NCBI RefSeq assembly: GCF_003269425.1
Contig: NZ_CP030104.1
Span: forward strand, 2,227,501-2,291,500
DNA: 64,000 bases
Direction of reading: 5' to 3'
Source of the DNA: Flagellimonas maritima
GTDB taxonomy: Bacteria; Bacteroidota; Bacteroidia; Flavobacteriales; Flavobacteriaceae
Positions within the stretch are counted from its first letter, which is position 1; the number at the start of each line of letters is the position of its first letter. The notes under the pieces were generated by a model. That model ran no database searches, was not told where the DNA came from, and worked only from the letters and a program-made list of their open reading frames with translations. A program made the position numbers and the translations under genes. Below, piece by piece: positions 7,952-34,902 of the stretch.

Positions 7952-7994
7952 TAAAATTAGCCCGTAGAAATAGCGTATACTATGACAAATATCA
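7952..7994 (-). promoter_or_regulatory. CRP/FNR-type class II promoter of the Usp gene
   Basis: On the reverse strand a dyad TGATATTTGTCA (7983-7994) is followed by exactly 23 nt and the -7 element TAATTTTA (7952-7959). The predicted start lies near 7947, putting the dyad centre at about -41.5. Confidence 0.75.
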
Positions 7995-8013
7995 GTTTTT
8001 GAATAGGTGTTTT

Positions 8014-8703
8014 TCAGAATCCTTCTACCAGCTCCCGAAGCTTTCTTTCGTTCTTGATTCCTACTTTTTTACCAGAAGTATGGATAAATCCTTTTTTCTT
8101 GAATTCCGAGATTATTCTGATTGCTGATTCGGTTGCCGTACCTACGACATTGGAGATATCCTCTCTTGATAAGGTCAGCGCCAAATAACCATCTTCATCT
8201 TCACCAAAATTATTCTTCAGGTATAGAAAAGCTTCGGCAATACGTTGCTTTACCGTTTTTTGGGACATGTTTACGATTACGTCATCGGCCTCTTTTAGAT
8301 CATGTGCCATGTGGCGGAGCACCTCAAGCGTAAAATTGGGATTTTTCTGTAAGGTATTCGCTATGCTCTCTTTTGGGATAAAGCATACTTCCATATCGCT
8401 AACGGCAATAGCAGATAAGTTTGCGCACTCTTCAGCTACTATAGAGCGCTGCCCAATGACTTCGCCCTTAGATGCCAATTTCACAATTTGATCCTTGCCA
8501 TTTGGACTCAATTTAGAAAGCTTGGAGACCCCGTTGCGTACACAATAGACTCCGTTAAGTTTATCCCCCTCTTCAAATAGGGATTCCCCTTTTTTAATTT
8601 TCTTTGTTGTTTTTGAGTCGGAAACTGTTTTCAACTCTTCTTTGCTCATGGCCCGTAAAGAATTGAACTGCCGAACGATACAATTTTCACACCTGCTTTC
8701 CAT
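8014..8703 (-). CDS. CRP/FNR-family transcriptional regulator, FNR-like
   Basis: A 229-residue regulator with an N-terminal cyclic-nucleotide-type beta-roll (about 25-135), a long dimer helix and a C-terminal winged helix (150-215). Compared from memory with E. coli FNR, the N-terminus RCENCIVRQFN aligns with the cluster-binding region, keeping two of three cysteines (Cys5, Cys8; Asn at the third), and Cys107 in VCFIP aligns with FNR Cys122. The recognition helix GTATESAIRIISEF keeps the FNR Glu and Arg (Glu192, Arg196) that read TGA half-sites. It is the best candidate to bind the TGA-N6-TCA sites nearby. It may sense oxygen with an incomplete or non-cysteine-completed cluster. Confidence 0.92.
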   Translation of the reverse strand: MESRCENCIVRQFNSLRAMSKEELKTVSDSKTTKKIKKGESLFEEGDKLNGVYCVRNGVSKLSKLSPNGKDQIVKLASKGEVIGQRSIVAEECANLSAIAVSDMEVCFIPKESIANTLQKNPNFTLEVLRHMAHDLKEADDVIVNMSQKTVKQRIAEAFLYLKNNFGEDEDGYLALTLSREDISNVVGTATESAIRIISEFKKKGFIHTSGKKVGIKNERKLRELVEGF

Positions 8704-8773
8704 TACTATAAAATTTACCTGACGTTTAAAGTTACTGCTTATTCAATTAAAAAAAACTGTAATTTTTTAGGTT

Positions 8774-8785
8774 TGATTCAAATCA
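8774..8785. promoter_or_regulatory. Weak TGA-N6-TCA dyad upstream of the FNR-like gene
   Basis: TGATTCAAATCA lies about 70 bp upstream of the FNR-like regulator and overlaps the last codons of the second CRP/FNR gene. It looks like an FNR box, but no TAnnTTTG element sits at the 23-nt spacing seen elsewhere. Autoregulation is possible; chance is also possible. Confidence 0.35.
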
Positions 8786-9458
8786 GATTTTTTAGACCTT
8801 TTTTTGAGTCCAATATGATTTCGCTCCTTGTAATTTTTAGAAACCCCTTATTCTTGAAGTGGGTCAATAAATTGATCACATATTCTTGTGAAGTACCCAG
8901 GACCGAAGCCATATCTTCCCGCTTGATCCGTATCAATAGCTTGCCGTTGGGCTCTTGTCCAAATTTTTCCGCCAAGTACAATATCAGTTTGGCCAAGCGT
9001 TGTTTTATACTTTTGTGTGCACAATAAATTGTTCTGGTAGAATCATGCGTATCAACATCATCTACAAAGGCACTCAATAGATCGTTACAGAAATCGGGGT
9101 TTGTTTTTAGATTTTTTTGTATTTCTTTTTTGTCCAAGCAGCACAGTACCGAGTCTACTAGGGCCGTAGCGGAAACTTTGGCACACCTGTTGGAAACCAA
9201 CGAACGTTTGCCCATTATATCTCCTTTTCCCAGAAAACGTGTAATGTGTTCCCGTCCCAGATTATCAAAAGTACTGAATTTACAAGCTCCCTCTTTTATA
9301 CAGTATACCTTGTTCAAAGGTTGATTTTCCTCAAAGATAACAGTACCCTTTGGTACAAAAAGCGATTCGGAAGTGTGTACTAATCTATTCAGTGATTTTT
9401 TGGAAAGAGACCTAAAATCATGTAGCTGTCGCACCTTTATGTTACTACACTTTTCCAT
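8778..9458 (-). CDS. CRP/FNR-family regulator, second paralogue with altered recognition helix
   Basis: From the ATG at 9458 the protein has 226 residues and aligns without obvious gaps to its downstream neighbour (KCSNIKVRQLHDFRSLSKK against RCENCIVRQFNSLRAMSKE). An upstream Met at 9482 would add eight residues with no counterpart in the paralogue, so the inner start is preferred. It keeps one N-terminal Cys, has Cys-Cys where FNR Cys122 aligns, and has a C-terminal winged helix. The recognition helix GTSQEYVINLLTHF keeps Glu192 but has Asn196 in place of the Arg of FNR-type proteins, so its DNA specificity may differ. It is divergent from ccoI and 75 bp from the next regulator. Confidence 0.9.
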   Translation of the reverse strand: MEKCSNIKVRQLHDFRSLSKKSLNRLVHTSESLFVPKGTVIFEENQPLNKVYCIKEGACKFSTFDNLGREHITRFLGKGDIMGKRSLVSNRCAKVSATALVDSVLCCLDKKEIQKNLKTNPDFCNDLLSAFVDDVDTHDSTRTIYCAHKSIKQRLAKLILYLAEKFGQEPNGKLLIRIKREDMASVLGTSQEYVINLLTHFKNKGFLKITRSEIILDSKKGLKNLI

Positions 9459-9493
9459 AGTGCAAAGGTAGTGGCGAGGCATTCCTTAAAAGC

Positions 9494-9536
9494 TGATATT
9501 TATCATGTTTTTTGCGTTTGTCGTAGTCCATCTTTG
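9494..9536 (+). promoter_or_regulatory. CRP/FNR-type class II promoter of ccoI
   Basis: The dyad TGATATTTATCA (9494-9505), followed by TGTTTTTT, is exactly 23 nt from CATCTTTG (9529-9536), a one-mismatch -7 element. The predicted start is near 9541. The site lies between the divergent regulator and ccoI and could also influence the regulator. Confidence 0.75.
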
Positions 9537-9548
9537 TATCAGGTATAA

Positions 9549-11939
9549 ATGCAAATGTGTATGGTTGCTTCAAAATGTTATCATTGTGGCGATGATTGCA
9601 ATCGGACAAAAATTCTTTTTGACGAAAAGGAGTTTTGTTGCAACGGCTGCAAAACTGTCTATGAGATATTTACATCCAACGGGCTTTCCAACTTCTACGA
9701 TATAGAGGCCAGGGCGGGCAGCGCTCCCAACGAAATCCGACAGAAATATGATTTCCTTGATAATGATGACATCATAGAAAAACTGGTTGAATTCAATGAG
9801 GAGAAAGTACAGGTTGTGAGTTTGAGCATACCGACCATCCATTGCAGTTCTTGCATTTGGGTTTTGGAAAATCTCAATCGTTTGCACAAATCGATTACAA
9901 ATTCGCAGGTGGATTTTCCCAAAAAAACCATTCGGGTAACTTATGGAACTGAAGGTTTTTCCCTGAAGGCGTTGGTTCTTTTATTGGGCAGTATAGGCTA
10001 TGAACCCTATATCTCATTGGAAGAGTATGATAGAAAGGATGGAAAAGAGAACCGTTCACTGATTTACAAGCTTGGTGTTGCAGGTTTTGCGTTTGGCAAT
10101 GTAATGTTGTTTTCCTTTCCTGAGTATTTTGAAGTTGAAGAGTTCTGGTTGGAACAATATAAGCAGGTCTTCCGTTGGTTAATGTTTGCCTTTTCGTTAC
10201 CTATCGTATTTTATGCGGCTCAGGATTATTTTATTTCAGCTTATAAAGGCCTGCGCTCAAAAATGTTGAATATAGATGTGCCAATAGCGTTGGGAATCTT
10301 GACCTTGTTTATAAGAAGCACCGTGGATATTGTCTTTGATTTGGGGTCAGGATTTTTTGATAGTCTAACCGGATTGGTCTTTTTCCTTTTACTGGGAAAA
10401 TATTTTCAGCAGAAAACCTATTCTTTTTTGTCTTTTGAACGGGATTACAAATCCTATTTTCCAATTGCGGTAACCAGACTGAATAGCGACAGGAATGAAG
10501 AAAACGTACAAATCTATGCTATAAATGTAGGTGATAGGATTTTAATCCGGAGTAACGAGATTATTCCATTTGATTGTATTCTGATAAAAGGTACCGCAGA
10601 AATAGATTATAGTTTTGTTACGGGAGAATCGCAAGCTGTATTTAAGCAATCGGGCGAGAAGCTTTTTGCAGGTGGAAAACAGCTTTCCGGGGTTTTGGAA
10701 GTTGAGGTGCTAAAATCGGTTTCGCAAAGTTACTTAACACAGCTGTGGGGCAATTCGGTTTTTGGCAAGGATAAGGTAACCGCTTTTCAAACACTTACGG
10801 ATAGTATTGGAAAACGTTTTACCATTGGCGTTTTGAGTATTGCTATTTTGGCCACCGCTTTTTGGCTTTTCCATTTGCCAAGTATGGCCCTGAACGTTTT
10901 TACGGCCGTGCTGATCATTGCTTGCCCCTGCGCAATAGCCTTGGCGGCTCCATTTACTTTGGGCAACATGTTGCGCATATTTGGCAAACACAAATTCTAT
11001 CTAAAGAACACCAATGTTATCGAGAGATTATCGAAAATAGATACGGCTATATTTGATAAGACAGGAACAATTACAACTACAGAAAAAGAAACCATCTTGT
11101 ATGAAGGTGTAGCGCTTACGGATTCAGAAAAAATATTGCTCAAGACTACGCTACGTGCTTCCAACCATCCATTGAGCAGATCGCTTTATGAAATTCTAAA
11201 ATCCAACGCCATTATGACTTTGGACGAGTTTCAGGAACATACGGGAAAAGGTATAGAAGGCAGATCGAACGAGCATTCCATTAAAGTGGGTTCCGCAAGC
11301 TATGTGGGTGGGAACAATTCAAATTCTGTTATAAATACAGCTGTTTATGTGAGTTCTGATGAGGATTATAAGGGACGTTTTATATTTAAGAACAACTACA
11401 GAAACGGTTTGGGGGGACTCTTCAAGAGCTTGGGCAAAGATTTTGGATTGGGGATTCTTTCCGGAGATAATGATGGGGAACAGCAACAACTTAAAAAAAT
11501 ACTTCCTAAAAATACAAGTTTGCTTTTCAATCAAAGACCAGAGGATAAACTGGAATACATAAGCGGATTGCAAAAGCACAAAAATGTTTTGATGGTTGGC
11601 GATGGCCTCAATGATGCAGGAGCCTTGGCGCAAAGTGACGTTGGCATCTCGGTTTCTGAAAACATCAATGTTTTTTCACCGGCCTGTGATGCCATTCTTG
11701 ATGCTTCACAATTGACCAAGCTTCCAGCGTTCATCAAAATGTCCAAAAAGTCCATGCAGGTTATAAAATTGAGCTTCCTTTTTTCATTGTGCTATAACAT
11801 AGTTGGACTTTATTTTGCGGTAACTGGTCAGTTGCAACCGGTCATAGCAGCGATATTGATGCCCTTGAGCTCTATTAGCATAGTTGTGTTCACTACGGTT
11901 TGTACCAATGTGTTGGGAAGAAAATTAAAAATTAAATAA
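9549..11939 (+). CDS. ccoI: Heavy-metal P-type ATPase, cbb3 oxidase assembly (CcoI/FixI type)
   Basis: A 796-residue copper-type P1B ATPase that supplies copper for cbb3 oxidase maturation. The N-terminus has the Cys-rich CYHCGDDC and FCCNGCK metal-binding region and an HMA domain with CSSC (99-102). It has the actuator TGES (358-361), the transmembrane CPC ion site (459-461), the phosphorylation motif DKTGT (503), an HP-type SNHP motif (about 537-540) and the hinge GDGLND (about 684). The in-frame Met at 9561 (MVASKCYHC) would leave a leader of about 20 nt from the predicted promoter and may be the true start. The gene directly precedes ccoS and carries its own class II CRP/FNR-type promoter. 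Confidence 0.95.
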   Translation: MQMCMVASKCYHCGDDCNRTKILFDEKEFCCNGCKTVYEIFTSNGLSNFYDIEARAGSAPNEIRQKYDFLDNDDIIEKLVEFNEEKVQVVSLSIPTIHCSSCIWVLENLNRLHKSITNSQVDFPKKTIRVTYGTEGFSLKALVLLLGSIGYEPYISLEEYDRKDGKENRSLIYKLGVAGFAFGNVMLFSFPEYFEVEEFWLEQYKQVFRWLMFAFSLPIVFYAAQDYFISAYKGLRSKMLNIDVPIALGILTLFIRSTVDIVFDLGSGFFDSLTGLVFFLLLGKYFQQKTYSFLSFERDYKSYFPIAVTRLNSDRNEENVQIYAINVGDRILIRSNEIIPFDCILIKGTAEIDYSFVTGESQAVFKQSGEKLFAGGKQLSGVLEVEVLKSVSQSYLTQLWGNSVFGKDKVTAFQTLTDSIGKRFTIGVLSIAILATAFWLFHLPSMALNVFTAVLIIACPCAIALAAPFTLGNMLRIFGKHKFYLKNTNVIERLSKIDTAIFDKTGTITTTEKETILYEGVALTDSEKILLKTTLRASNHPLSRSLYEILKSNAIMTLDEFQEHTGKGIEGRSNEHSIKVGSASYVGGNNSNSVINTAVYVSSDEDYKGRFIFKNNYRNGLGGLFKSLGKDFGLGILSGDNDGEQQQLKKILPKNTSLLFNQRPEDKLEYISGLQKHKNVLMVGDGLNDAGALAQSDVGISVSENINVFSPACDAILDASQLTKLPAFIKMSKKSMQVIKLSFLFSLCYNIVGLYFAVTGQLQPVIAAILMPLSSISIVVFTTVCTNVLGRKLKIK

Positions 11940-11942
11940 AGC

Positions 11943-11985
11943 TGATAAATGTCATTTTTTCAAAAAAAAGGTAAAAGTAGTTTTA
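11943..11985 (+). promoter_or_regulatory. CRP/FNR-type class II promoter of the ccoS-NO-Q-P operon
   Basis: The dyad TGATAAATGTCA (11943-11954), followed by TTTTTT, is exactly 23 nt from TAGTTTTA (11978-11985). The predicted start is near 11990, about 12 nt before the ccoS ATG. It gives the oxidase operon a promoter separate from ccoI. Confidence 0.77.
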
Positions 11986-12001
11986 CGCTCAATTAGTAGG
12001 T

Positions 12002-12193
12002 ATGAGTGTTATTTATGTGTTATTGGCCATAAGTGTTTCCGTGGCATCGGTTTTTTTTATAGCCTTTGTCCTCTCTGTGAGGAACGGCCAGTACGATGAT
12101 TCATATACACCTTCGGTAAGAATGCTTTTTGAAGATGAACTTTTACCGGATTCAGAAAAAAGTGATGTGAAAACAAAAAATCAAACCAAATAA
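12002..12193 (+). CDS. ccoS: Cytochrome cbb3 oxidase maturation protein CcoS
   Basis: A 63-residue protein with one N-terminal membrane helix (VIYVLLAISVSVASVFFIAFV) and a short acidic cytoplasmic tail with FEDELLPDSE. Size, topology and position between ccoI and ccoNO fit CcoS, a factor needed for cofactor insertion into the cbb3 oxidase. It starts the oxidase operon, 17 bp before ccoNO. Confidence 0.88.
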   Translation: MSVIYVLLAISVSVASVFFIAFVLSVRNGQYDDSYTPSVRMLFEDELLPDSEKSDVKTKNQTK

Positions 12194-12210
12194 GGAACAA
12201 ACCGATCACT

Positions 12211-14415
12211 ATGGAAATACAACAATTTCGCTACGATAATAAAATCGTACAAAAGTTTTTATACGCTACCATGTTGTGGGGCGTTGTTGGAATGCTGGTA
12301 GGCCTTTTACTGGCTTTCATGTTTTTGTTCCCAAATATTACGGACGGTATCTCATGGTTGAGCTTTGGACGTTTACGTCCATTGCATACAAATGCCGTGA
12401 TTTTTGCCTTTGTGGGGAACGCCATATTTGCAGGTGTATATTACTCTACACAACGCTTGCTAAAGGCTAGGATGTTCAACGATTTTCTAAGTAATTTCAA
12501 TTTTTGGGGATGGCAGTTAATCATTGTTGCGGCGGCCATAACATTGCCTTTGGGATACACAACATCAAAAGAATATGCAGAATTGGAATGGCCTATAGAT
12601 ATAGCCATTGCTATAGTTTGGGTCGTTTTTGGATGGAACTTGATCGGTACCATCCTTAAAAGAAGACAACGTCATCTATATGTTGCAATATGGTTCTATT
12701 TGGCCACATTTGTTACCGTTGCCGTATTACATATTTTCAATAGTTTGGAATTGCCAGTAGCTGCGTTGAAAAGTTATTCCGTATACGCAGGAGTACAGGA
12801 TGCTTTGGTACAATGGTGGTACGGACATAATGCCGTGGCTTTCTTTTTGACTACACCATTTTTGGGATTGATGTACTATTTTGTCCCAAAGGCGGCCAAT
12901 AGACCAATATACTCTTACCGTCTTTCCATTGTTCATTTTTGGTCGTTGATATTCATCTATATCTGGGCAGGGCCTCACCATTTATTGTACTCTTCTCTTC
13001 CAGATTGGGCTCAAAATCTTGGTGTTGTTTTCTCGATTATGCTAATTGCCCCGTCTTGGGGAGGTATGATCAATGGTCTGTTGACCCTACGTGGAGTATG
13101 GGACAAAGTAAGAACAGATGCCACATTAAAATTTATGGTGGTCGCCATTACGGGATATGGTATGGCCACCTTTGAAGGACCCATGTTGTCCCTTAAAAAC
13201 GTAAATGCCATAGCCCACTTTAGTGATTGGATCATTGCCCACGTACATGTTGGGGCATTGGCTTGGAACGGGTTCCTCACATTTGGCATGATTTATTGGT
13301 TGGTCCCTAAAATGTTCAAGACAACACTTTACTCCAAAGGGCTTGCCAATGTACACTTTTGGATAGGAACGTTGGGAATTATACTATATGCGCTCCCCAT
13401 GTACGTTGCAGGATTCACGCAAGCGTTAATGTGGAAAGAGTTCAATCCGGATGGAACATTGGTCTACGGTAACTTTTTGGAAACGGTGACCCAAATTATC
13501 CCAATGTATTGGATGCGCGCTATTGGCGGTACGATGTTCCTGGTAGGAATGTTGATAATGGTCTACAATGTAATTGCAACCATCAGAAAAGGAAGCTCTG
13601 TGGAAGATGAGCTTGCCGAAGCAGCAGCATTGACAAGGGTGTCAAAAAAACGAGTTGCTGGAGAAACTTTCCACAATTGGTTGGAACGTAGACCTGTACA
13701 GCTTACGATTTTGGCAACCGTAGCTATATTGATAGGTGGAATCATTCAGATTGTTCCTACTATTCTGGTAAAATCAAATATTCCAACAATTACAAGTGTA
13801 AAGCCATATACACCTTTGGAATTGGAAGGACGTGATCTCTATATCCGTGAAGGTTGTGTGGGGTGTCACTCCCAAATGATAAGACCATTTAGAAGTGAGG
13901 TAGAACGCTATGGGGAATATGCCAAAGCAGGAGAATTTGTATATGACCATCCTTTCCTTTGGGGAAGTAAAAGAACGGGTCCGGATTTATTGCGGGTAGG
14001 TGGAAAATATTCTGATAACTGGCATCTAAATCACATGTACGACCCACAAAGTACTTCATCGGGCTCCATCATGCCAGCATACCAATGGTTGGTCACCAGT
14101 GAACATGATAGAAGCGCGGTAAAAAATAAAATGGAAGCTATGGTCAAGCTGGGCGTTCCCTATACCGAAGAAGACATTGCCAATGCAGGGCAATCCATGG
14201 CAGAACAATCCATACAAATTGAGAAGAACCTTTATACAGACCCTGAATTTGCCAGAACCTATGAGGCGGATAAAAAATATGCACAGGAAAATGGGGAGGA
14301 TTTTGTTCAGATGCGCGATAGGGAAATAGTTTCGCTGATTGCCTATTTACAGCGATTGGGTACTGATATAAAAATTAAGGGAGACGATGGATTGTTGTCA
14401 GATAATAAAGAATAG
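12211..14415 (+). CDS. ccoNO: Cytochrome c oxidase cbb3-type, fused subunits I and II (CcoN-CcoO)
   Basis: A 734-residue fusion. Residues 1 to about 490 form the multi-span CcoN core: heme-ligand region LRPLHTNAVIF (His59), the WWYGHNAVAFF segment and the GPHHLLYSSLPDW region that carry heme and CuB ligands. After a linker and one more membrane helix, residues about 520-734 are CcoO, with one heme-c motif CVGCH (549-553) and the following SQMIRPF. It is the catalytic subunit of a high-affinity terminal oxidase that reduces oxygen and pumps protons in the inner membrane. The N-O fusion is common in Bacteroidota. It is transcribed with ccoS, ccoQ and ccoP. Confidence 0.96.
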   Translation: MEIQQFRYDNKIVQKFLYATMLWGVVGMLVGLLLAFMFLFPNITDGISWLSFGRLRPLHTNAVIFAFVGNAIFAGVYYSTQRLLKARMFNDFLSNFNFWGWQLIIVAAAITLPLGYTTSKEYAELEWPIDIAIAIVWVVFGWNLIGTILKRRQRHLYVAIWFYLATFVTVAVLHIFNSLELPVAALKSYSVYAGVQDALVQWWYGHNAVAFFLTTPFLGLMYYFVPKAANRPIYSYRLSIVHFWSLIFIYIWAGPHHLLYSSLPDWAQNLGVVFSIMLIAPSWGGMINGLLTLRGVWDKVRTDATLKFMVVAITGYGMATFEGPMLSLKNVNAIAHFSDWIIAHVHVGALAWNGFLTFGMIYWLVPKMFKTTLYSKGLANVHFWIGTLGIILYALPMYVAGFTQALMWKEFNPDGTLVYGNFLETVTQIIPMYWMRAIGGTMFLVGMLIMVYNVIATIRKGSSVEDELAEAAALTRVSKKRVAGETFHNWLERRPVQLTILATVAILIGGIIQIVPTILVKSNIPTITSVKPYTPLELEGRDLYIREGCVGCHSQMIRPFRSEVERYGEYAKAGEFVYDHPFLWGSKRTGPDLLRVGGKYSDNWHLNHMYDPQSTSSGSIMPAYQWLVTSEHDRSAVKNKMEAMVKLGVPYTEEDIANAGQSMAEQSIQIEKNLYTDPEFARTYEADKKYAQENGEDFVQMRDREIVSLIAYLQRLGTDIKIKGDDGLLSDNKE

Positions 14416-14570
14416 ATAAGAATCAAGATAAAAGAACCAAGAAAAGAGATGATTTTTATAGTCAAAAGCCTTGAATATTAATATCTGAAATCAAATAAAA
14501 AACAGAAAAAGTAACGTCTTTGTTCTCATATCTGATTTCTAAGAGCGAAGCGGTCTAAAATCTAATTACG

Positions 14571-14760: not shown

Positions 14761-15720
14761 ATGAGTACTAAAACGCCTTGGTGGATACGCATTCCGTTTC
14801 TATTCTTTGTAATCTTCGGATTAATGGAATACTTTATAGATTCCGGTGAGAAACCCGCAATTATCGAATATCCGATAACACAGTTTTTTATGCTCATGGT
14901 CTTGATGATCTTGATTGCGATAGAACTGATTCTGAATTCTATAGAGAACGTAATGTTTCAAACGCTTTCTCCTGAAGCAAAGGAGCGCTATTTGGCGGTA
15001 AAAAACAAGAAAAGGGAATGGACCTGGCTCAACAATATCTACAAGCGTCTAACAAAGACAAAAGCTATAGAAAAAGAGGGAGAAATCATCATGGACCATA
15101 ATTATGATGGCATTCGCGAGCTTGATAATGTATTGCCGCCATGGTGGGTATATATGTTCTATGCCACAATTATTTTTGGTGTGGTTTATTTGGTTCGTTT
15201 TCACGTTGCAGGCGACTATGACCAAGAATTGGAGTACGAACAAGAAGTTGCAGCCGCAAAGATTGCAATAGAGGAATACAAAAAAACAGCAAAGGACTTG
15301 GTAGATGTCAATACTGTTGAATTTCTTGCCGATGCTTCAGATTTAAGTGCCGGAGAAAAAATCTTTATAAACAATTGTGTTGCATGCCACATGGCCGACG
15401 GTGGTGGTGGAATAGGACCAAACCTAACGGACGAATATTGGATTTTGGGAGGCGGCATCAAAAATGTGTTCAATACTATATCGGAAGGCGGTCGTGATGG
15501 AAAAGGAATGGTAGCGTGGAAACAAAGTCTTAAACCTGTTGAAATGGCCCAAGTGTCCAGTTATATATTGACCTTGGGCGGAACAACTCCTGCAAATCCA
15601 AAAGCGCCGGAAGGTGAAATTTGGGTAGACCCGGATGCTCCTGCCGAAGCAGAAGAAAAAATAGAAGAGGTAACACCTGTTGAGCAAGTTGTGGACTCTA
15701 CGGATATTGCTATGAATTAA
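14761..15720 (+). CDS. ccoP: cbb3 oxidase subunit III (CcoP), single visible heme-c site
   Basis: A 319-residue protein with two N-terminal membrane helices, a cytoplasmic linker, a third helix (PPWWVYMFYATIIFGVVYLV) and a periplasmic cytochrome c domain with CVACH (206-210) and a probable Met ligand in GKGMVAW. Proteobacterial CcoP has two heme-c sites; only one CxxCH is present here, as often in Bacteroidota. The C-terminal tail is rich in Pro, Glu and Ala. It donates electrons to the fused ccoNO subunit. The gene is 68 bp before ccoG. Confidence 0.94.
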   Translation: MSTKTPWWIRIPFLFFVIFGLMEYFIDSGEKPAIIEYPITQFFMLMVLMILIAIELILNSIENVMFQTLSPEAKERYLAVKNKKREWTWLNNIYKRLTKTKAIEKEGEIIMDHNYDGIRELDNVLPPWWVYMFYATIIFGVVYLVRFHVAGDYDQELEYEQEVAAAKIAIEEYKKTAKDLVDVNTVEFLADASDLSAGEKIFINNCVACHMADGGGGIGPNLTDEYWILGGGIKNVFNTISEGGRDGKGMVAWKQSLKPVEMAQVSSYILTLGGTTPANPKAPEGEIWVDPDAPAEAEEKIEEVTPVEQVVDSTDIAMN

Positions 15721-15788
15721 GAAATAATTCCATCTTTTTTATTAGATGGAGAAAGGTGTTTGAAGGAGGAGTTGAAAATTAAACTGCA

Positions 15789-17198
15789 ATGGAAGAGAAT
15801 TTTAGGGATTCCATAGGTACAATATCAGAAGAAGGCAAGCGGGCATGGGTATACCCTAAGAAACCTAAAGGACGGTTTTTTGAGTACAGGAAATATGTGA
15901 GCTATGTGCTTTTACTCTTTTTGGTTGCTTCGCCATTTATCAAAATAAAGGGCAACCAGTTTTTAATGTTCAACATACTGGAAAGGCGTTTCAATATTTT
16001 TGGATTTCCGTTTTGGCCCCAAGATTTCCATTTGGTCGTAATTTCAATGCTTGCCGGTGTTATATTTATTGCCCTTTTTACAGTGGCGTATGGCCGTATA
16101 TTCTGTGGTTGGGTATGTCCACAGACCATTTTTATGGAAATGGTATTCCGTAGGGTCGAATATTGGATAGATGGTGACCGTGGTGCACAGATGCGGTTGG
16201 ATAGGTCTCCATGGAATGGGAAAAAGATACGCAAACGAGTTTTAAAATGGACCATCTTTTTCATTATCTCTTTCTTGATAGCAAATGTTTTTTTAGCATA
16301 CTTGATCGGTAGCGATAAACTGATTCGATACGTATTCGATGGTCCTTCCGCACACATGGGAACCATTATTCCGTTGCTGATTTTTACGGCAGTATTTTAT
16401 TTTGTTTTTGCATGGTTTCGCGAGCAGGTCTGTATCATTGCTTGTCCATATGGAAGATTACAGGGCGTGCTTTTGGATAATAAATCGATAGTGGTCGCAT
16501 ATGACCACAAACGCGGAGAAGCAGAGAATGGCCGCAAAAAATTCAGGAAGAATGAAGATAGGGATGCACTTGGCCATGGAGACTGTATCGATTGTTTTCA
16601 ATGTGTCAATGTTTGCCCTACGGGGATTGATATTCGTAATGGTACCCAATTGGAATGTGTGAACTGTACGGCATGTATCGATGAATGTGACCATATTATG
16701 GAAAGCATCCAAAAACCCAAAGGGTTGATTCGTTATGCCAGTGAGGATGAAATTAACAAAAAATCCAAATTTAAGTTCACTGCTCGCATGAAGGGATACA
16801 CTGCTGTTTTGACCATATTGATAGGGATACTAATAGGCATGCTTTTCCTTAGGAGCGAGTTGGAAGCAAACATATTTAGGTTGCCCGGGCAACTCTACGA
16901 GAGAAAGGAAAACAATATCATCAGCAATGTCTATACCTATAAATTGATGAACAAGACCACCAAGGATATTGAAGATATCAGTTTTAGATTATTGTCGCAT
17001 AAAGGTGAAATAAAAATGGTTTCACAGGATAATTTTCAAATATCCGCCGAAGAACCTGCGGAAGGGACTTTATTTATAGAAATCAATAATTCTGAATTAA
17101 CGGGGGATAAGGATAAGTTGGAAATTGGAATCTACAGTGGAGAAAAACTTGTAGAAACCACAGCGACACAATTTTTGGCTCCAAGGAGTTATCATTGA
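15789..17198 (+). CDS. ccoG: cbb3 oxidase accessory protein CcoG (4Fe-4S membrane protein)
   Basis: A 469-residue membrane protein. N-terminal helices carry CGWVCPQT and CIIACPYGR, and the central domain has two ferredoxin-type clusters (CIDCFQCVNVCPTG and CVNCTACIDECDH). A final helix leads to a C-terminal periplasmic beta domain. CcoG/RdxA proteins are proposed to reduce copper during cbb3 assembly. It follows ccoP by 68 bp and is probably in the same operon. Confidence 0.95.
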   Translation: MEENFRDSIGTISEEGKRAWVYPKKPKGRFFEYRKYVSYVLLLFLVASPFIKIKGNQFLMFNILERRFNIFGFPFWPQDFHLVVISMLAGVIFIALFTVAYGRIFCGWVCPQTIFMEMVFRRVEYWIDGDRGAQMRLDRSPWNGKKIRKRVLKWTIFFIISFLIANVFLAYLIGSDKLIRYVFDGPSAHMGTIIPLLIFTAVFYFVFAWFREQVCIIACPYGRLQGVLLDNKSIVVAYDHKRGEAENGRKKFRKNEDRDALGHGDCIDCFQCVNVCPTGIDIRNGTQLECVNCTACIDECDHIMESIQKPKGLIRYASEDEINKKSKFKFTARMKGYTAVLTILIGILIGMLFLRSELEANIFRLPGQLYERKENNIISNVYTYKLMNKTTKDIEDISFRLLSHKGEIKMVSQDNFQISAEEPAEGTLFIEINNSELTGDKDKLEIGIYSGEKLVETTATQFLAPRSYH

Positions 17199-17322
17199 CA
17201 GCTATAAGTTTTTTAATTAAAACCTATGACTTATTTATGAATGTGAAGTTGGTATAAAAGTAAGATTTGTGGTCAGTAAAAAAATTATCATGATCATTAT
17301 GCTTAAAGCTTAAAATTAAGAT

Positions 17323-17769
17323 ATGAAAATAAATTGGGGAACAAGTATAGTATTGGCCTTTGTAGCTTTCATTGCATTTATACTCTATTTCGTGGTACGA
17401 ATGAGTACTGACGATAGAGCAAACCATGATTTGGTCACCGATGATTATTACAAGCAAGAACTAGCGTATCAGAATGAAATCAATGCATCTAAATCCGCTA
17501 CGGATATGAATGCAACACTTGAGGTTATAAAATCTGAAGAAGGTTTATCCATTTTTTTTCCCAAACAATTTGATTATAAAGAAATTACGGGAACGGTGTC
17601 CCTTTACAGACCGTCTAACAAGCATTTGGATGTTGACTTTTCCATAAGTCTGTCCAAAACACATTTGCTCATACCTGACAATAGCTTGCTGGACGGTCGC
17701 TGGGACATTAAAATTAAATGGAAATATCAAGGAAAGACCTTTTTACATAAAGAAAAATTAGTTTACTGA
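17323..17769 (+). CDS. ccoH: FixH/CcoH family protein, cbb3 assembly
   Basis: A 148-residue protein with one N-terminal membrane helix (GTSIVLAFVAFIAFILYFVVR) and a periplasmic FixH-like domain containing the typical DLVTDDYYKQELAYQ segment and a C-terminal beta-sandwich. It supports cbb3 oxidase assembly together with CcoG and CcoI. It lies 124 bp after ccoG, with an AT-rich gap and no recognised regulatory dyad, and 4 bp before the TauE/SafE-like gene. Confidence 0.92.
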   Translation: MKINWGTSIVLAFVAFIAFILYFVVRMSTDDRANHDLVTDDYYKQELAYQNEINASKSATDMNATLEVIKSEEGLSIFFPKQFDYKEITGTVSLYRPSNKHLDVDFSISLSKTHLLIPDNSLLDGRWDIKIKWKYQGKTFLHKEKLVY

Positions 17770-17773
17770 GCGT

Positions 17774-18484
17774 ATGTTGTTGTCTGCATTGGCATTAGGT
17801 TTTTTGGGAAGTCTGCACTGTTTGGGCATGTGTGGCCCCATAGCTTTCTTTTTGCCATTGGATAGAAACAGCAAAATAAAAAAAACCATTCAACTTTTTA
17901 TATACCATGCCGGTAGATTGTTGGCCTATGGTTTGATCGGAATGCTCTTTGGCTTTTTGGGCAAAGGACTGTCCATTTTTGGAATGCAACAGAAATTGTC
18001 GATAGGAATAGGTATTATAATGATTCTTTTGGTAGTAGTTCCTAGTAGGTATTTCAATAAGTATAGACTATCGAAACCTATCTACGCCGCCTTAGGAAAA
18101 GTAAAGTCAAAACTTGGGGCCGAGCTCAAAAAAAAGACTCCAGATGTATTTTTGACCATCGGTTTTTTGAACGGCTTTTTGCCATGCGGATTGGTATATA
18201 TGGCATTGTTGGGGGCAATTGCCTTTGGCAGCCCTTTACAAGGCGGATTTTACATGATTTTGTTTGGTGCCGGCACCATCCCCTTAATGACACTAGTTGT
18301 CTTTTCAAAGGGATTATTGGCAGACCCATTAAAATCTAAAATGCGAAAATTGGTTCCGATATTTGTGATGATGATCGGAGTCCTTTTCATCATCAGAGGG
18401 CTCGGTTTGGGCATTCCTTATGTTTCTCCCAAACCTGCTTCAGCCAATTCGGTATCCGCATCAATTGAATGTCATCAACCTTAA
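17774..18484 (+). CDS. TauE/SafE (UreH-like) membrane protein of the cco operon
   Basis: A 236-residue integral membrane protein with about six helices. The first helix contains GSLHCLGMCGPIAFF, and a second FLPCGLVYMAL motif lies near residue 135, the paired Cys/Pro motifs of the SafE/UreH/DsbD-like membrane family. In many Bacteroidota this gene closes the cbb3 assembly operon, where it is thought to handle copper or reductant. The sequence supports the family; the specific role is inferred from the 4-bp spacing to ccoH. Confidence 0.85.
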   Translation: MLLSALALGFLGSLHCLGMCGPIAFFLPLDRNSKIKKTIQLFIYHAGRLLAYGLIGMLFGFLGKGLSIFGMQQKLSIGIGIIMILLVVVPSRYFNKYRLSKPIYAALGKVKSKLGAELKKKTPDVFLTIGFLNGFLPCGLVYMALLGAIAFGSPLQGGFYMILFGAGTIPLMTLVVFSKGLLADPLKSKMRKLVPIFVMMIGVLFIIRGLGLGIPYVSPKPASANSVSASIECHQP

Positions 18485-18495
18485 AAAAAATATAA

Positions 18496-19764
18496 GTGAA
18501 AATTACATCAGCAGAAGAAGTAGTAAAAATTGTAAATTCAGGTGACCGTGTCTTCGTTCAGGGAGCGGCAATGACCCCTAATGAACTTATCGATGCACTT
18601 TGTGACCGTCATAAGGAGATAAAGGATGTGGAGATTATTTCGATCCATACCGAAGGAGATGCAAAATATACACAAGAGCCTTATATCAATTCCTTTACGC
18701 TAAACTCTTGTTTTGTGGGGGGTAATGTAAGAAAAAGTGTCAATACTCCAAACGCAGATTATATTCCAATTTTTTTGAGTGAGATTCCTTGGTTGTTCAA
18801 AAGAAACATTTTACCATTGGATGTTGCCATTGTTCAAGTTTCCAGTCCAGATAAACATGGATATTGTTCTTTGGGTGTTTCTGTAGATGTGGCTTTGCCC
18901 GCTATCCGAACAGCAAAGAAAATAATAGCCCAAATCAACCCTAATGTTCCCAGAACACATGGAACGGGCATCATCCATATTGATCAAATTGAATTTGCCA
19001 CGGAAGTTGATAGACCTATACATGAGCACGGTATTGGTTCAATATCCGATTTGGAGCAAAAAATAGGTGTCAATGTTGCCTCTTTGATAGAAGATGGGGC
19101 CACATTACAGATGGGTATCGGAAACATTCCCAATGCTGTATTGACCAATCTGAACAACCATAAACGTTTGGGCATTCATACTGAAATGTTTTCAGATGGG
19201 GTTTTACCGTTGATTGAAAGTGGGGTAATCACTGGCGAAGAGAAAGCGGTAAAGGTTGGAAAAATTGTAAGTTGCTTTGCCGTTGGATCAGGAAAACTTT
19301 ATGATTTCATCGATGATAATCCAATCTGTGATTTCAGGGATTCAGGTTATACGAACGATACGGCTAGAATCAGGAGAAATCCAAAAGTAACGGCTATCAA
19401 TAGTGCCATTGAGATAGATTTGACGGGTCAGGTCTGTGCAGATACCATAGGGAGCTATCAGTTTTCTGGAGTAGGAGGCCAGATGGATTTTATTCGTGGA
19501 GCTTCATTATCCAATGGTGGTAAACCTATTTTCGCCATTTCCTCAACTACGAACAAAGGGATTTCCAAAATAACCCCTTTTTTAAAGCAAGGGGCAGGAG
19601 TGACCACCACAAGAGCACATGTTCACTATGTTGTCACTGAATACGGAGTGGTAAACCTGTATGGGAAAAATTTACAGCAACGGGCAAAGGCACTTACATC
19701 CATAGCACATCCAGACCATAGGGAGATGTTGGAAAAAGCTGCACATGAACGATTCAAGGGGTAA
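18496..19764 (+). CDS. Acetyl-CoA hydrolase/transferase family (4-hydroxybutyrate or acetate CoA-transferase)
   Basis: A 422-residue CoA-transferase. The N-terminal half has the CoA-transferase fold (DRVFVQGAAMTPNELIDAL) and the C-terminal half the AcetylCoA_hyd_C domain, with the GVGGQMDFIRGA motif and the conserved VTEYGVVNLYGK. It exchanges CoA between acyl-CoA and acetate or a similar acid. The start is GTG, with no in-frame ATG nearby at the right position. It follows the TauE/SafE gene by 11 bp and may be read through from the cco operon, which would fit acetate or short-acid metabolism under oxygen limitation. Confidence 0.92.
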   Translation: MKITSAEEVVKIVNSGDRVFVQGAAMTPNELIDALCDRHKEIKDVEIISIHTEGDAKYTQEPYINSFTLNSCFVGGNVRKSVNTPNADYIPIFLSEIPWLFKRNILPLDVAIVQVSSPDKHGYCSLGVSVDVALPAIRTAKKIIAQINPNVPRTHGTGIIHIDQIEFATEVDRPIHEHGIGSISDLEQKIGVNVASLIEDGATLQMGIGNIPNAVLTNLNNHKRLGIHTEMFSDGVLPLIESGVITGEEKAVKVGKIVSCFAVGSGKLYDFIDDNPICDFRDSGYTNDTARIRRNPKVTAINSAIEIDLTGQVCADTIGSYQFSGVGGQMDFIRGASLSNGGKPIFAISSTTNKGISKITPFLKQGAGVTTTRAHVHYVVTEYGVVNLYGKNLQQRAKALTSIAHPDHREMLEKAAHERFKG

Positions 19765-20807: not shown

Positions 20808-21629
20808 TCAGATTTTAAATGTTATAACTGGAGTATCGGAATGGTTCGCAATATCCTCCCCTATACTTCCCATAAAGAAGTGCGATAATCCTCTTCTGCC
20901 GTGTGTGGGGATTCCAATAAGGTCGGCAGCTACGCTTTCACTGTAATTAAGGACTCCCTTTTCAACAGTATAATCATTGAAGATTTCTACCTCCAATCCT
21001 AATTTGGCAATGTTCAAAAATTTTGAAATTCTGTCATAAGCATCATCGGTACTCAAAAACTCATCCCCTGGCGTGTTTATGTAAACAGGAAGTAAATCAG
21101 ACTTGAACAGTTTTGCAATTTCAATGGCCTTTTTAAGGGCGGGAATATTTTCCTCCTTAAAATCACACGCAAAAACAAAACGCTTGGGAGTAAATTCCTT
21201 CTCATCGCCTTTTATGACCAATACCGGAACATCTGAAGTTCTGACAACGCGCTCCGTATTGGAACCAATGAATACCTCCTGTAACCCGTCCGTTCCATGA
21301 GACCCCATAACAACTAGGTCTGCGTTATGTTTTTTAACAATCTCATTGACTTCCGTGAATACTTTATAGTGCTTAATGACAGGTACGACCTTGACATCTT
21401 TCAAATATGGTTTGTCCAAGAAATCCGAGAAACGTTTCTCCCCAATTTTTATTAAATGTACTACTTGCTCTTGCGATACATAGCCCGATTCGCTCATAAT
21501 AGCGGGAGAAAGCTCCAACATGTGGAGCACCAATAGCTCGGCATCACTGCCTTTTGCCAAAGTAGCTGCCGCTTTTAAAGCTTTTTCTGATTGTTCCGAA
21601 AAATCTACGGGTACGATTATACTTTTCAT
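20808..21629 (-). CDS. Tandem-domain universal stress protein
   Basis: A 273-residue protein with two Usp domains. Domain 1 starts SIIVPVDFSEQSEKALKAAA and has GSHGTDGLQEVFIGSNTERVV and PVLVIKG; domain 2 ends with the intact loop GIPTHGRRGLSHFFMGSIGEDIANH and PVITFKI. Both nucleotide-loop signatures look complete. It starts 18 bp after hemN on the same strand, so it should be transcribed from the hemN promoter. Confidence 0.94.
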   Translation of the reverse strand: MKSIIVPVDFSEQSEKALKAAATLAKGSDAELLVLHMLELSPAIMSESGYVSQEQVVHLIKIGEKRFSDFLDKPYLKDVKVVPVIKHYKVFTEVNEIVKKHNADLVVMGSHGTDGLQEVFIGSNTERVVRTSDVPVLVIKGDEKEFTPKRFVFACDFKEENIPALKKAIEIAKLFKSDLLPVYINTPGDEFLSTDDAYDRISKFLNIAKLGLEVEIFNDYTVEKGVLNYSESVAADLIGIPTHGRRGLSHFFMGSIGEDIANHSDTPVITFKI

Positions 21630-21647
21630 TTTTTTTCTTTTTAATGG

Positions 21648-23006: not shown

Positions 23007-23027
23007 GTTTGCAATAATGGTATTGGT

Positions 23028-23070
23028 CAAAATTAGGCTTGCGAGCCTTCAAAAAACATGATAATTATCA
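23028..23070 (-). promoter_or_regulatory. CRP/FNR-type class II promoter of hemN-usp
   Basis: The perfect palindrome TGATAATTATCA (23059-23070) is followed on the reverse strand by TGTTTTTT and, after exactly 23 nt, by the consensus -7 element TAATTTTG (23028-23035). The predicted start is near 23023, which fixes the hemN start codon at 23006. Confidence 0.82.
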
Positions 23071-23093
23071 GTATTTCTTTCAGAAAGCTTACC

Positions 23094-23136
23094 TGACAAG
23101 TATCATGTTTTAGTAATAGTCTGGGTTGTAGCTTAG
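23094..23136 (+). promoter_or_regulatory. CRP/FNR-type class II promoter of the GCS2-CBS gene
   Basis: The dyad TGACAAGTATCA (23094-23105), followed by TGTTTT, is exactly 23 nt from TAGCTTAG (23129-23136), one mismatch from the -7 consensus. It is divergent from the hemN site 23 bp away, so the gap holds two independent back-to-back promoters. Confidence 0.75.
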
Positions 23137-27130: not shown

Positions 27131-27173
27131 TAAAGTTAGATAGGACGACCAAAAAAAAATATGATAAAAATCA
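27131..27173 (-). promoter_or_regulatory. CRP/FNR-type class II promoter of tonB
   Basis: On the reverse strand TGATTTTTATCA (27162-27173), followed by TATTTTTT, is exactly 23 nt from TAACTTTA (27131-27138). The predicted start is near 27126. Confidence 0.73.
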
Positions 27174-27952: not shown

Positions 27953-27996
27953 CAAAGTTTTGCGATTAGGTATTCTAAAAAGTATGATACTTGTCA
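27953..27996 (-). promoter_or_regulatory. CRP/FNR-type promoter of the DUF2490 gene (24-nt spacing)
   Basis: On the reverse strand TGACAAGTATCA (27985-27996), followed by TACTTTTT, is 24 nt from AAACTTTG (27953-27960), which differs from TAnnTTTG at its first base. The dyad equals the one at 23094-23105. Spacing is one longer than in the other eight sites. Confidence 0.6.
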
Positions 27997-29010: not shown

Positions 29011-29127
29011 TTCAATGAAGTGTTTCAATGTCGTTTTTAAAGATAATAATAATGAATGCATAATTATGGCCAATGTCCTTGGAAATAAATGATAAAACAA
29101 AGTTTAATGAACTAAAATTTCAAAACC

Positions 29128-29170
29128 TGATTTCTGTCATGTTTTAGGTCACTGTCCAGCCATAATTTTA
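29128..29170 (+). promoter_or_regulatory. CRP/FNR-type class II promoter of usp-SLC13-pckA-pfk
   Basis: The dyad TGATTTCTGTCA (29128-29139), followed by TGTTTT, is exactly 23 nt from TAATTTTA (29163-29170). The predicted start is near 29175. On the opposite strand an AAACTTTG at 29098-29105 lies 22 nt away, so the site might also activate the divergent ROK gene. Confidence 0.77.
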
Positions 29171-29201
29171 CCTAAGAATTTGATCACTAAATTTTTCAGG
29201 T

Positions 29202-29993: not shown

Positions 29994-30015
29994 TGTCAGT
30001 TTCAACAAAAAAACT

Positions 30016-31854: not shown

Positions 31855-31878
31855 AACAATTTATTAAAATCAATATTT

Positions 31879-33507: not shown

Positions 33508-33520
33508 TTAATACAAAAAC

Positions 33521-34837
33521 GTGAATAGAAACGTCAAGTTCCAGATAGAAAGTCTAGGTACTCCAGAATTTAAATCTCCCCTACAGTTAAGCACTGTAAG
33601 GGGAGATAATATTTTTAGTTTTATAAAAGAGAAAGATAAACTGGTTTTTGACTTATCGGTCGAGAATTACAACCATTGCCTTTCAACAGGAGAGACACCG
33701 CAATGTCTTGAGAAGGCAGGGCCGCGTCAAGACGTATTTTTTGACCCAGGGAAGACCACGGCAGCCATAGTTACTTGTGGGGGTCTGTGTCCTGGTATCA
33801 ATAATGTGATAAGAGGTGTGGTCATGGCACTCCACTACTTTTATGGAATAAAAAGAGTAATAGGCATTCCATACGGTTATGAAGGCCTGAACCCGGATAT
33901 TGGTCATGGGTTTATTGAACTGAGTCCAGAAAAAGTTAAGGATATCCATCAATTTGGAGGAACTTTTCTTGGCTCGTCAAGAGGAGGTCAAGACGTTTCT
34001 AAAATGGTGGACACTCTCGTTAACAACAAAATAGACATGTTGTTTGCCATTGGCGGGGACGGTACTTTAAAAGGTGTTAACGCAATTGGAGAGGAAATCA
34101 ATAGAAGAAATGAAAAAATCAGCGTGGTCGGGATTCCAAAAACAATTGACAATGACATTGATTTAATCGACGAATCTTTCGGTTTTGAAACTGCTTTTGA
34201 TGTAGCCAGCCCTATTTTGAGGGATGCCCACAATGAAGCAGCGGGAGCTTATAATGGAATTTCCATAGTAAAGCTCATGGGGAGGGACAGTGGATTTATA
34301 GCTGCCTCCGCAGCTCTGGCAATGCCAGTAGTCAATTTTGTTCTGATTCCTGAAATGGATTTTCAACTGGAAGGTGAAAATGGCTTTTTAGAAGTCTTGA
34401 GACGTAGACTGGATCGAAAGAAACATGCTGTAATTGTTGTGGCAGAAGGTGCAGGCCAACATCTGTTCAAAAATAAAAATGTAATCAAAGATGCTTCAGG
34501 AAACATAAAACACGATGATATAGGCTTATTTTTAAAGCATAAGATAGAGGAACACTTTGACGATTTTCCAGTGACCATAAAATATATCGACCCTAGTTAT
34601 ATCATCAGGAGCGCTCCAGCAAACTCCAGTGACAGTGTATATTGTAGTAGATTGGCATACCACGCCGTACATGGGGCAATGGCGGGCAAGACCAAATTTG
34701 TGGTGAGCACTGTAAATAATAGGTTCGTATATGCGCCAATAGTGGAAGTAACAAAAAAACGAAAGAAAATAGATTTGGAAAGTGAGTTTTGGTTTTCGGT
34801 ACTTCAGAGTACGGGCCAACCATTTTCAATAAAATAA
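33521..34837 (+). CDS. pfkA: 6-phosphofructokinase (long, plant/TP0108-like group)
   Basis: A 438-residue phosphofructokinase with a GTG start. It has GGLCPGINNVIRGVV near the ATP site, the segment GGTFLGSSRGG, the donor-site motif GGDGTLKGVNAIGEE (Gly after Asp favours ATP over pyrophosphate), the catalytic PKTIDNDIDL and the hexose-site GRDSGFIAASAALA. Lys in PKTIDND is shared with the PPi/plant-like clade, so donor choice is best called probable ATP. It follows pckA by 13 bp. Opposite-direction carbon enzymes in one unit suggest a fermentative flow from sugar to PEP to oxaloacetate. Confidence 0.93.
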   Translation: MNRNVKFQIESLGTPEFKSPLQLSTVRGDNIFSFIKEKDKLVFDLSVENYNHCLSTGETPQCLEKAGPRQDVFFDPGKTTAAIVTCGGLCPGINNVIRGVVMALHYFYGIKRVIGIPYGYEGLNPDIGHGFIELSPEKVKDIHQFGGTFLGSSRGGQDVSKMVDTLVNNKIDMLFAIGGDGTLKGVNAIGEEINRRNEKISVVGIPKTIDNDIDLIDESFGFETAFDVASPILRDAHNEAAGAYNGISIVKLMGRDSGFIAASAALAMPVVNFVLIPEMDFQLEGENGFLEVLRRRLDRKKHAVIVVAEGAGQHLFKNKNVIKDASGNIKHDDIGLFLKHKIEEHFDDFPVTIKYIDPSYIIRSAPANSSDSVYCSRLAYHAVHGAMAGKTKFVVSTVNNRFVYAPIVEVTKKRKKIDLESEFWFSVLQSTGQPFSIK

Positions 34838-34859
34838 TAGCGTTTCCATTTTTAGATAC

Positions 34860-34902
34860 TGACAGATGTCATGTTTTTACATATGACAAGTTTTTAGCTT
34901 TG
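34860..34902 (+). promoter_or_regulatory. CRP/FNR-type class II promoter of the hibernation-factor gene
   Basis: The dyad TGACAGATGTCA (34860-34871), followed by TGTTTTT, is exactly 23 nt from the perfect -7 element TAGCTTTG (34895-34902). The predicted start is near 34907, with a 21-nt leader. This is the cleanest example in the window. Confidence 0.83.

Follow-up and report, generated by a model that had tools for sequence, protein, structure and literature searches.

The stretch of the Flagellimonas maritima genome analysed here (positions 2227501-2291500 of a 3.77 Mb genome in one contig; GC 38%), the whole 64,000 nucleotides (nt) of which are referred to as the window, carries nine TGA-N6-TCA dyads, each placed at a short, set distance from a promoter -7 box. 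They lie upstream of genes for, among others, universal stress proteins, a cbb3 oxidase and its copper ATPase, a hemN-like protein and two regulators of the CRP/FNR family, for which the working names RegA and RegB are used. The locus was compared in 21 genus regions, i.e. its own and those of 20 of 70 relatives (mainly long-contig ones) from a set of 71 genus genomes, the relatives being named Flagellimonas, Allomuricauda or Muricauda. Regions around RegA of 40 kb were taken for 20 genus genomes and of 20 kb for 15 family and five order genomes; the family regions represent 15 of 18 (G074, with no match, and G077 and G080, with weak matches, were omitted), the five order genomes were chosen among those with a RegA match, and all 41 regions were thus selected for the presence of RegA. 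In this comparison a -7 box was accepted if at least five of the six letters of TAnnTTTG agreed. The sites in the window are as follows.

Site 1, 7952..7994, minus strand: dyad 7983-7994, 23 nt, -7 box TAATTTTA at 7952-7959, toward usp1 (7030-7932); 21/21 genus regions.
Site 2a, 9463..9505, minus strand: dyad 9494-9505, 23 nt, -7 box TACCTTTG at 9463-9470, toward RegB/RegA.
Site 2b, 9494..9536, plus strand: dyad of site 2a, 23 nt, -7 box CATCTTTG at 9529-9536, toward ccoI; 21/21 genus regions, each CAnnTTTG.
Site 3, 11943..11985, plus strand: dyad 11943-11954, 23 nt, -7 box TAGTTTTA at 11978-11985, before ccoS; 21/21 genus and 12/13 family/order regions.
Site 4, 23028..23070, minus strand: dyad 23059-23070, 23 nt, -7 box TAATTTTG at 23028-23035, toward the hemN-like gene; 21/21 genus regions.
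Site 5, 23094..23136, plus strand: dyad 23094-23105, 23 nt, -7 box TAGCTTAG at 23129-23136, toward genes for a CBS protein and an AstE_AspA deacylase; 20/20 gene-bearing genus regions.
Site 6, 27131..27173, minus strand: dyad 27162-27173, 23 nt, -7 box TAACTTTA at 27131-27138, toward tonB (26386-27108); 21/21 genus regions.
Site 7, 27953..27996, minus strand: dyad 27985-27996, 24 nt, -7 box AAACTTTG at 27953-27960, toward a DUF2490 gene (27228-27926).
Site 8, 29128..29170, plus strand: dyad 29128-29139, 23 nt, -7 box TAATTTTA at 29163-29170, toward usp3-CitMHS-pckA-pfk; 21/21 genus regions.
Site 9, 34860..34902, plus strand: dyad 34860-34871, 23 nt, -7 box TAGCTTTG at 34895-34902, toward HPF (34928-35230); 21/21 genus regions.

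All nine dyad positions named in the original prediction, an earlier note on this DNA, were recovered in the sequence. Its fixed 23-nt link to a -7 element stood in full, i.e. with a complete TAnnTTTR, for the dyads at 7983, 11943, 23059, 27162, 29128 and 34860; it stood in part at 9494, where the ccoI box on the plus side lacks the first T, and at 23094, where the box is one letter off. The 9494 dyad has a 23-nt box on each side, facing the second CRP/FNR gene on the minus strand (TACCTTTG) and ccoI on the plus strand (CATCTTTG), while the -7 position belonging to 23094 reads TTTR in 17 and has a TTAG form in two (G034, G051) of the 19 other gene-bearing genus regions. The 24-nt spacing claimed for 27985 was also found (AAACTTTG), and the DUF2490 promoter is a stable exception, its spacing being 24 nt in 14/17 genus regions and 23 nt in 3/17; a fixed distance from operator to core promoter, as is characteristic of class II promoters, is seen in every other unit. 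A second promoter on the ROK-kinase side of the 29128 dyad was considered and rejected, as none of 18 genus regions has a box at 23 nt on that side.

The bare 12-mer occurs 37 times in the window against 24.4 expected, a number reached by one of 100 shuffles. The strict combination of TGA-N6-TCA with TAnnTTTR at 23 nt was counted seven times, whereas the 80 other spacings (0-80 nt) gave a mean of 0.09 and a maximum of one; the link at 23 nt therefore exceeds chance, as had been claimed. Additionally, a first-order Markov simulation of 200 sequences yielded 0.055 occurrences on average and never more than two. In the whole genome the same pattern has 12 matches, seven of them inside the window, against two for the reversed pattern. 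When the dyad is written as TGAY-N4-RTCA and gaps of 10-36 nt are allowed, 33 matches are found, of which 23 nt accounts for ten and no other gap for more than three, the reversed control giving 18 over all gaps; seven of the ten TGAY-form 23-nt sites fall in a 27-kb part of the window.

The genus-wide counts, made at 23 nt and at 21 nt, gave 1665 matches to the TGAY-N4-RTCA form at 23 nt against 25 reversed (8-41 per genome, median 23) and 51 against 16 reversed at 21 nt, the 71 genomes being related and the counts across them not independent. The genome-wide count had been named beforehand as the result on which the proposal could fail, and it came out strongly in favour. In a phylum sample of 395 genomes, searched with TAnnTTTG and summed from per-genome rows, the sites number 334 in 40 other genomes of the family (eight reversed), 36 in eight genomes from the order's other families (none reversed) and 138 in 49 genomes from the class's other orders (nine reversed); most remaining genomes of the phylum have 0-2 sites. 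Two genomes of a distant family of the phylum, G413 and G446, have 28 and 30 sites at 23 nt, respectively.

The genus gene order (usp, regA, ccoI, ccoNO-P-G-H, usp-hemN-like, CBS-AstE, tonB, usp-CitMHS-pckA-pfk, HPF) is kept with some losses, and with it the dyad and box at exactly 23 nt before usp1, ccoI, ccoS-NO, the hemN-like gene, tonB, usp3, HPF and cbs, as listed above. A 23-nt site likewise precedes regA (17 regions) or, where present, regB (four regions), amounting to 21/21. No 23-nt site precedes the operon-internal genes ccoP, ccoG, ccoH, astE, cit, pck, pfk and usp2 in the genus regions; pfk has a dyad lacking a box at 23 nt in 6/21. The 21/21 obtained for the lipoprotein gene re-counts the HPF site, which lies within 420 nt. 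Beyond the genus, a 23-nt site precedes ccoI in 16/20, ccoS-NO in 12/13 and the hemN-like gene in 3/4 regions. Pairwise identity across the genus is 35-59% in the spacer, 81-95% in the dyad and 81-100% in the -7 box. The back-to-back dyads at 23059-23105 (hemN-like/cbs) vary in mutual distance from about 30 to 52 bp between species, each keeping its own 23 nt.

Class II operators are centred at about -41.5. The consensus of 188 sites, in which the regA/ccoI dyad was entered once per side, reads AAAA-n-C/A-TGAY-A-W-W-T-RTCA-T/G-n-TTTT, then TA-n-n-TTT-R (raw letter counts are used for these sites; percentages from an earlier tally were weighted by unit). The TAnnTTTG box of F. psychrophilum occupies -12 to -5 in the available text of PMC9723704, and if it sits there in our sites too, the dyad centre would fall at -41.5. 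With this numbering, the +1 column holds A in 115 of 184 readable sites and the -1 column a pyrimidine in 142. A T occurs at -30 in 185/188 sites and its mirror position, -53, is A in just 96/188, and for this reason the downstream T-run appears to be more than flank symmetry; it may stand in for a -33 box. Furthermore, the conserved weak first base of the ccoI box (CAnnTTTG in all 21 genus regions) is what would be expected of an activator-dependent promoter. The base before TGA (-48) is C in 152, A in 35, G in one and T in none of the 188 sites. The E. coli CRP site is TGTGA-N6-TCACA; no cAMP-CRP site was found among the 188, only one having the G before TGA. Similarly, none corresponds to the FNR site TTGATNNNNATCAA (as given in the available part of PMC4601167), the sites having an inner TGAY-N4-RTCA with no T before TGA.

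The genes of the cluster, other than those of the regulators, include the following.

7030..7932, minus strand: universal stress protein gene usp1 (Usp domain, Pfam PF00582).
9549..11939, plus strand: CcoI-type heavy-metal P-type ATPase (family match).
12002..12193, plus strand: small open reading frame (ORF) of 63 amino acids (aa), which we take to be ccoS-like, named by resemblance.
12211..14415, plus strand: ccoNO, fused cbb3 oxidase subunits I/II (NF011053, TIGR00780, TIGR00781).
14761..19764, plus strand: ccoP (FixP_N, cytochrome c), ccoG, ccoH (FixH), a DsbD_2-type membrane protein and an acetyl-CoA hydrolase/transferase family protein (family matches).
20808..23030, minus strand: hemN-like radical SAM gene and Usp gene (PF04055 above cut-off, PF06969 HemN_C below, PF00582).

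The earlier gene labels usp, CcoI-type ATPase, ccoNO, ccoP, ccoG, ccoH, tonB, pckA, pfk and HPF were upheld by family matches, and ccoS by resemblance. The hemN label was upheld in its Radical_SAM part, the HemN_C match being below its cut-off, and the start of this gene probably lies further in than the listed TTG at 23030, which falls inside the -7 box. In the GCS2-CBS label the CBS part agrees with Pfam; the GCS2 part was not found, the NCBIfam matches being all below cut-off and on the CBS part. The lipoprotein label was not confirmed, as no family scored above its cut-off with the ORF concerned.

Three further sites lie outside the window in this genome, before a cytochrome c-fasciclin-nosZ operon, a Thioredoxin_9 gene, and a biotin-carrier gene, behind which lies a biotin-carboxylase-like gene, a uridine-kinase-like gene standing on the other side of this last site (the biotin-carboxylase-like and uridine-kinase-like genes are named by resemblance). 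The nosZ gene of this genome, the only one for which it was confirmed by profile, matches NosZ TIGR04246 at 934 bits, and homologues of the operon's leading cytochrome gene occur in 71/71 genus genomes, a 23-nt site preceding it in 30/30 best loci. In two relatives, G053 (12/12 sites outside the cluster examined) and G033 (8/10), the thioredoxin, biotin-carboxylase and cytochrome-fasciclin targets recur, both adding OmpW and a small gene that stands before one for an oxidoreductase of the Gfo/Idh/MocA type (profile match in G033, resemblance in G053). OmpW is consequently a target in two genomes, and the Thioredoxin_9 and biotin-carrier/carboxylase genes in three. Targets met in one relative only are, in G053, universal stress proteins (three sites), a ferritin-like protein and a pyridine nucleotide-disulphide oxidoreductase and, in G033, a NorB-resembling gene of the COX1 family. 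The family search covered all of these 20 outside-cluster sites but L217 and L226 and returned no family at L223 and L227.

Two CRP/FNR-family genes lie between usp1 and ccoI.

8014..8703, minus strand: RegA, CRP/FNR-family regulator (PF00027 and HTH_Crp_2, PF13545), with invariant Cys5, Cys8, Cys54 and Cys107.
8778..9482, minus strand: RegB, divergent CRP/FNR paralogue (Cys8 replaced by Ile, recognition-helix Arg by Asn).

A CcoI-type gene adjoins regA in all 41 regions, these having been chosen for RegA, and the closest relatives of RegA in the named collection are mostly from Flagellimonas, Allomuricauda and Muricauda. Cys5, Cys8, Cys54 and Cys107 are invariant in 120/120 RegA proteins (120 of 121 were used for the cysteine reading; L149, of fewer than 200 aa as read, was omitted), and in the P set 120 of 121 proteins have all four, RegB alone departing from this. 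RegA matches an FNR-type regulator among PDB sequences at 4e-24, and CRP/FNR structures head its fold search; its NCBIfam scores are 109 bits for the Fnr model, 74 for FnrL and 58 for FixK, all below cut-off (300 for FixK and FnrL). Alignment to A. fischeri FNR places Cys5, Cys8 and Cys107 on FNR positions 20, 23 and 122, with Asn14 at Cys29 and with Cys54, located in the beta-roll, at an Ala of FNR. The contacts of the FNR recognition helix are Glu209, Ser212 and Arg213; RegA keeps Glu192 and Arg196 and has Ile195 in the place of Ser212, so that the FNR set is incomplete, and the Ile agrees with the absence of the outer base from the sites. Cluster ligands of FNR are cysteines 20, 23, 29 and 122, according to the available part of PMC4601167, a set that RegA does not possess in full, position 29 being Asn14.

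Twenty CRP/FNR paralogues, hand-picked from the listed matches in relatives, were compared with RegA. Ten have the N-terminal pair and Cys107, Phe or Ile at position 54 and, as in FNR, a further N-terminal cysteine near the pair; seven lack a cysteine at all four places, two have all four and a further N-terminal one, and one is RegB-like. Proteins with Cys54 thus tend to have lost the third cysteine of the FNR type, as would be expected if a cluster ligand had moved.

The original prediction spoke of both regulators together, but the two are not equal: RegB occurs in only 4/21 genus regions and in all five copies examined has Ile for the candidate cluster cysteine Cys8 and Asn for the recognition-helix Arg. 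The sites are kept in 17/21 regions that lack RegB, and it was rejected as equal partner or main regulator; a mode of action like that of RegA is unlikely for it, and it looks like a decaying or re-purposed CRP/FNR paralogue. Its true start is likely at 9458, and the presumed transcription start falls on the A of this ATG; the message may be leaderless.

One dyad faces both regA and ccoI. Among 80 named loci (L149, whose locus has just 654 bases upstream, being entered as a miss), the ccoI side has the 23-nt spacing in 79, and the regA side has 23 nt in 71, 9 nt in five and neither in four. A search of the 160 bp next to regA in the 20 family/order regions gave a ccoI side at 23 nt in 15 (16/20 when searched from ccoI), and a regA side at 23 nt in three, 9 nt in seven, 11 nt in two, none of these in five and no dyad in three. 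The regA-side spacing is mostly 23 or 9 nt, by genus (L103-L182; L043-L062). A dyad at 9 nt would be centred at -27.5, over the -33 region, so a protein bound there should block the promoter; self-control of regA would accordingly be negative in the 9-nt genera and positive in the genus of the window.

Universal-stress gene clusters with further 23-nt sites were found in G046, G053 and G058, one such cluster per genome containing a gene for a receiver-CRP/FNR fusion, preceded by a histidine-kinase gene (domains checked with Pfam in both G046 proteins and in the kinase of G053).

L234:4655-5722, L237:4103-5149 and L233 about 9997-11037: receiver-CRP/FNR fusion, beside a histidine kinase.

The mean number of sites per genome is 15.7 in 21 genomes with no fusion copy, 24.6 in 38 with one and 33.2 in 12 with two, a comparison uncorrected for relatedness in which the presence of the fusion was judged by best E-values and listed matches and three copies with an internal stop were included. 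In the window's own genome no full-length receiver-CRP match was listed, the best E-value being 1.3e-22 against 1e-60 or better in fusion-bearing genomes.

Taken together, the observation is real, and it is well supported that the sites form a conserved regulon of class II-like design under an FNR-like regulator. They are likely to serve an FNR-like activator, RegA being the best candidate, as operators at promoters that are of class II and are read by the primary sigma factor of Bacteroidota. Low oxygen, the presumed signal, is well supported by the targets, and RegA as the binder is inferred from the neighbourhood. The low-oxygen reading already given in the original prediction gains support from a CRP/FNR gene in the cluster, whose own promoter has a site in most relatives, from the implied position of -41.5 and from the targets, namely the cbb3 oxidase, CcoI, the hemN-like gene, the nosZ operon and OmpW. 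Under low oxygen RegA would hold an iron-sulphur cluster on Cys5, Cys8, Cys54 and Cys107, dimerise and bind; the bound dimer would contact RNA polymerase around -33, a stretch in which the sites have T-runs. RegA would then switch on the high-affinity cbb3 oxidase and its assembly factors, the hemN-like gene, universal stress proteins and ribosome hibernation, as well as PEP carboxykinase, phosphofructokinase and, elsewhere, the nosZ operon, and would control its own gene through the dyad common to ccoI. In F. psychrophilum the cbb3 oxidase and haem enzymes rise under oxygen limitation (available text of PMC9723704).

A more far-reaching proposal, somewhat less likely than not, is put forward tentatively: RegA would found a Bacteroidota branch of FNR, in which a ligand has moved from Cys29 in the N-terminal loop to Cys54 in the beta-roll and the class II rule of -41.5 is intact on a different promoter type; one dyad would serve the back-to-back regA and ccoI promoters, self-control being repression in genera where the regA -7 box stands 9 nt from a dyad over the -33 region and activation where it has shifted to 23 nt, and the receiver-CRP fusion would have joined this geometry, adding universal-stress targets.

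Several observations weigh against the main reading, that of RegA as the FNR-like activator of the sites. The binder is deduced from neighbourhood, and other CRP/FNR proteins lie near 23-nt sites in relatives; no dyad was found within 160 bp upstream of regA in 3/20 distant regions (G082, G107, G134). The third N-terminal cysteine of FNR is missing, and the outer T of TTGAT is unused. Two paralogues and the distant-family RegA homologues L279 and L280 carry all four cysteines, Cys54 included, and further ones as well, and RegA proteins of the family and order (n=20) have extra, non-invariant ones (position 30 in eight, 33 in five, 93 or 194 in others), so that conservation alone does not fix the fourth ligand. 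The structure model of RegA, with a mean pLDDT of 73.8 and residues 1-17 mostly below 50, bears neither way on the four-cysteine site.

The alternative that survives best, if still an unlikely one, is that the sites answer nitric oxide or another redox signal rather than chiefly oxygen. The nosZ operon and the NorB-resembling COX1-family gene of G033 do carry sites, and FNR itself also reacts with nitric oxide (available part of PMC4601167); the constant core, however, consists of the cbb3 oxidase, its copper ATPase and the hemN-like gene, which serve low-oxygen respiration, and a related species raises its cbb3 when oxygen is limiting (PMC9723704, as above). Less probable again is that the dyads serve another CRP/FNR protein (RegB, a paralogue with FNR-type cysteines or a cAMP-type CRP), RegA being just a neighbour. 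Several CRP/FNR paralogues do exist in relatives, and the receiver-CRP fusion lies beside further 23-nt sites, the total of sites per genome growing with its copy number. Against this, RegA and RegB are the sole matches to RegA (E 0.001) in the window's own genome, which has no full-length receiver-CRP listed, RegB is missing from 17/21 genus regions that keep the sites, and the -48 base differs from that of E. coli FNR (TTGAT) or CRP sites.

That the dyads are repressor operators or structural repeats, the 23 nt having no activating role, is very improbable: the regA dyad does stand at a repressor-like place, 9 nt from the -7 box, in some genera, but a repressor has no need of an exact distance upstream of the -33 region, the 23 nt are fixed in all units but one while the spacer has diverged, and the ccoI -7 box keeps its poor first base, as for an activator-dependent promoter. 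Chance or recent common descent, invoked because AT-rich intergenic DNA makes TAnnTTTR common and the genus genomes are related, can practically be dismissed in view of the small reversed-pattern and 21-nt controls, the lower counts at other spacings (0-80 nt in the window, 10-36 nt in the genome), the diverged spacers and upstream DNA and the same excess in other families of the phylum.

Operators for RegA, the reading retained here, would provide the Flavobacteriaceae, called an understudied major family in the available text of PMC9723704, with a site for an activator, a rule for its spacing and a probable sensor of oxygen. A literature search outside subscription journals and preprints yielded no paper recognised as describing this regulon or spacing, and neither Crp nor Fnr occurs in the main text of PMC9723704. 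The spacing rule would allow low-oxygen and N2O-reduction genes to be predicted in this group from sequence only, and the finding raises the testable question of whether class II contact is a property of CRP/FNR and polymerase that survives a change of promoter alphabet.

Compared with known systems, the sites share the TAnnTTTG -7 box with the Flavobacterium primary sigma promoters and differ from them in the dyad at fixed distance and the T-runs in the -33 region (available text of PMC9723704). A MalR-like reading of Flavobacteriales CRP/FNR homologues (available part of PMC8510549) predicts carbon sensing, whereas the RegA family has invariant cysteines and respiratory targets. The likeness to control by FixK, FnrL and ANR lies in an FNR-type protein that would govern ccoNOP, ccoGHIS and hemN. 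In Proteobacteria these regulators control the cbb3 oxidase; unlike them, RegA scores best with the Fnr model and is associated with a different promoter type. With E. coli FNR, RegA shares the CRP/FNR fold, the inner TGAT-N4-ATCA core, an operator presumably near -41.5, respiratory targets and cysteines aligned with 20, 23 and 122. In contrast to E. coli FNR, it has no Cys29, an invariant Cys54 and Ile at the Ser212 position, the outer T of TTGAT is unused, TGAC-N4-GTCA is also used, the promoter is of the TAnnTTTG type, and the regulon, with several universal stress genes, lies largely in one 27-kb cluster. The moved cysteine would represent a natural rearrangement of the FNR cluster site, and RegA, judged on its sequence, would work like FNR but is not FNR proper by the strict features of Cys29, Ser212 and TTGAT.

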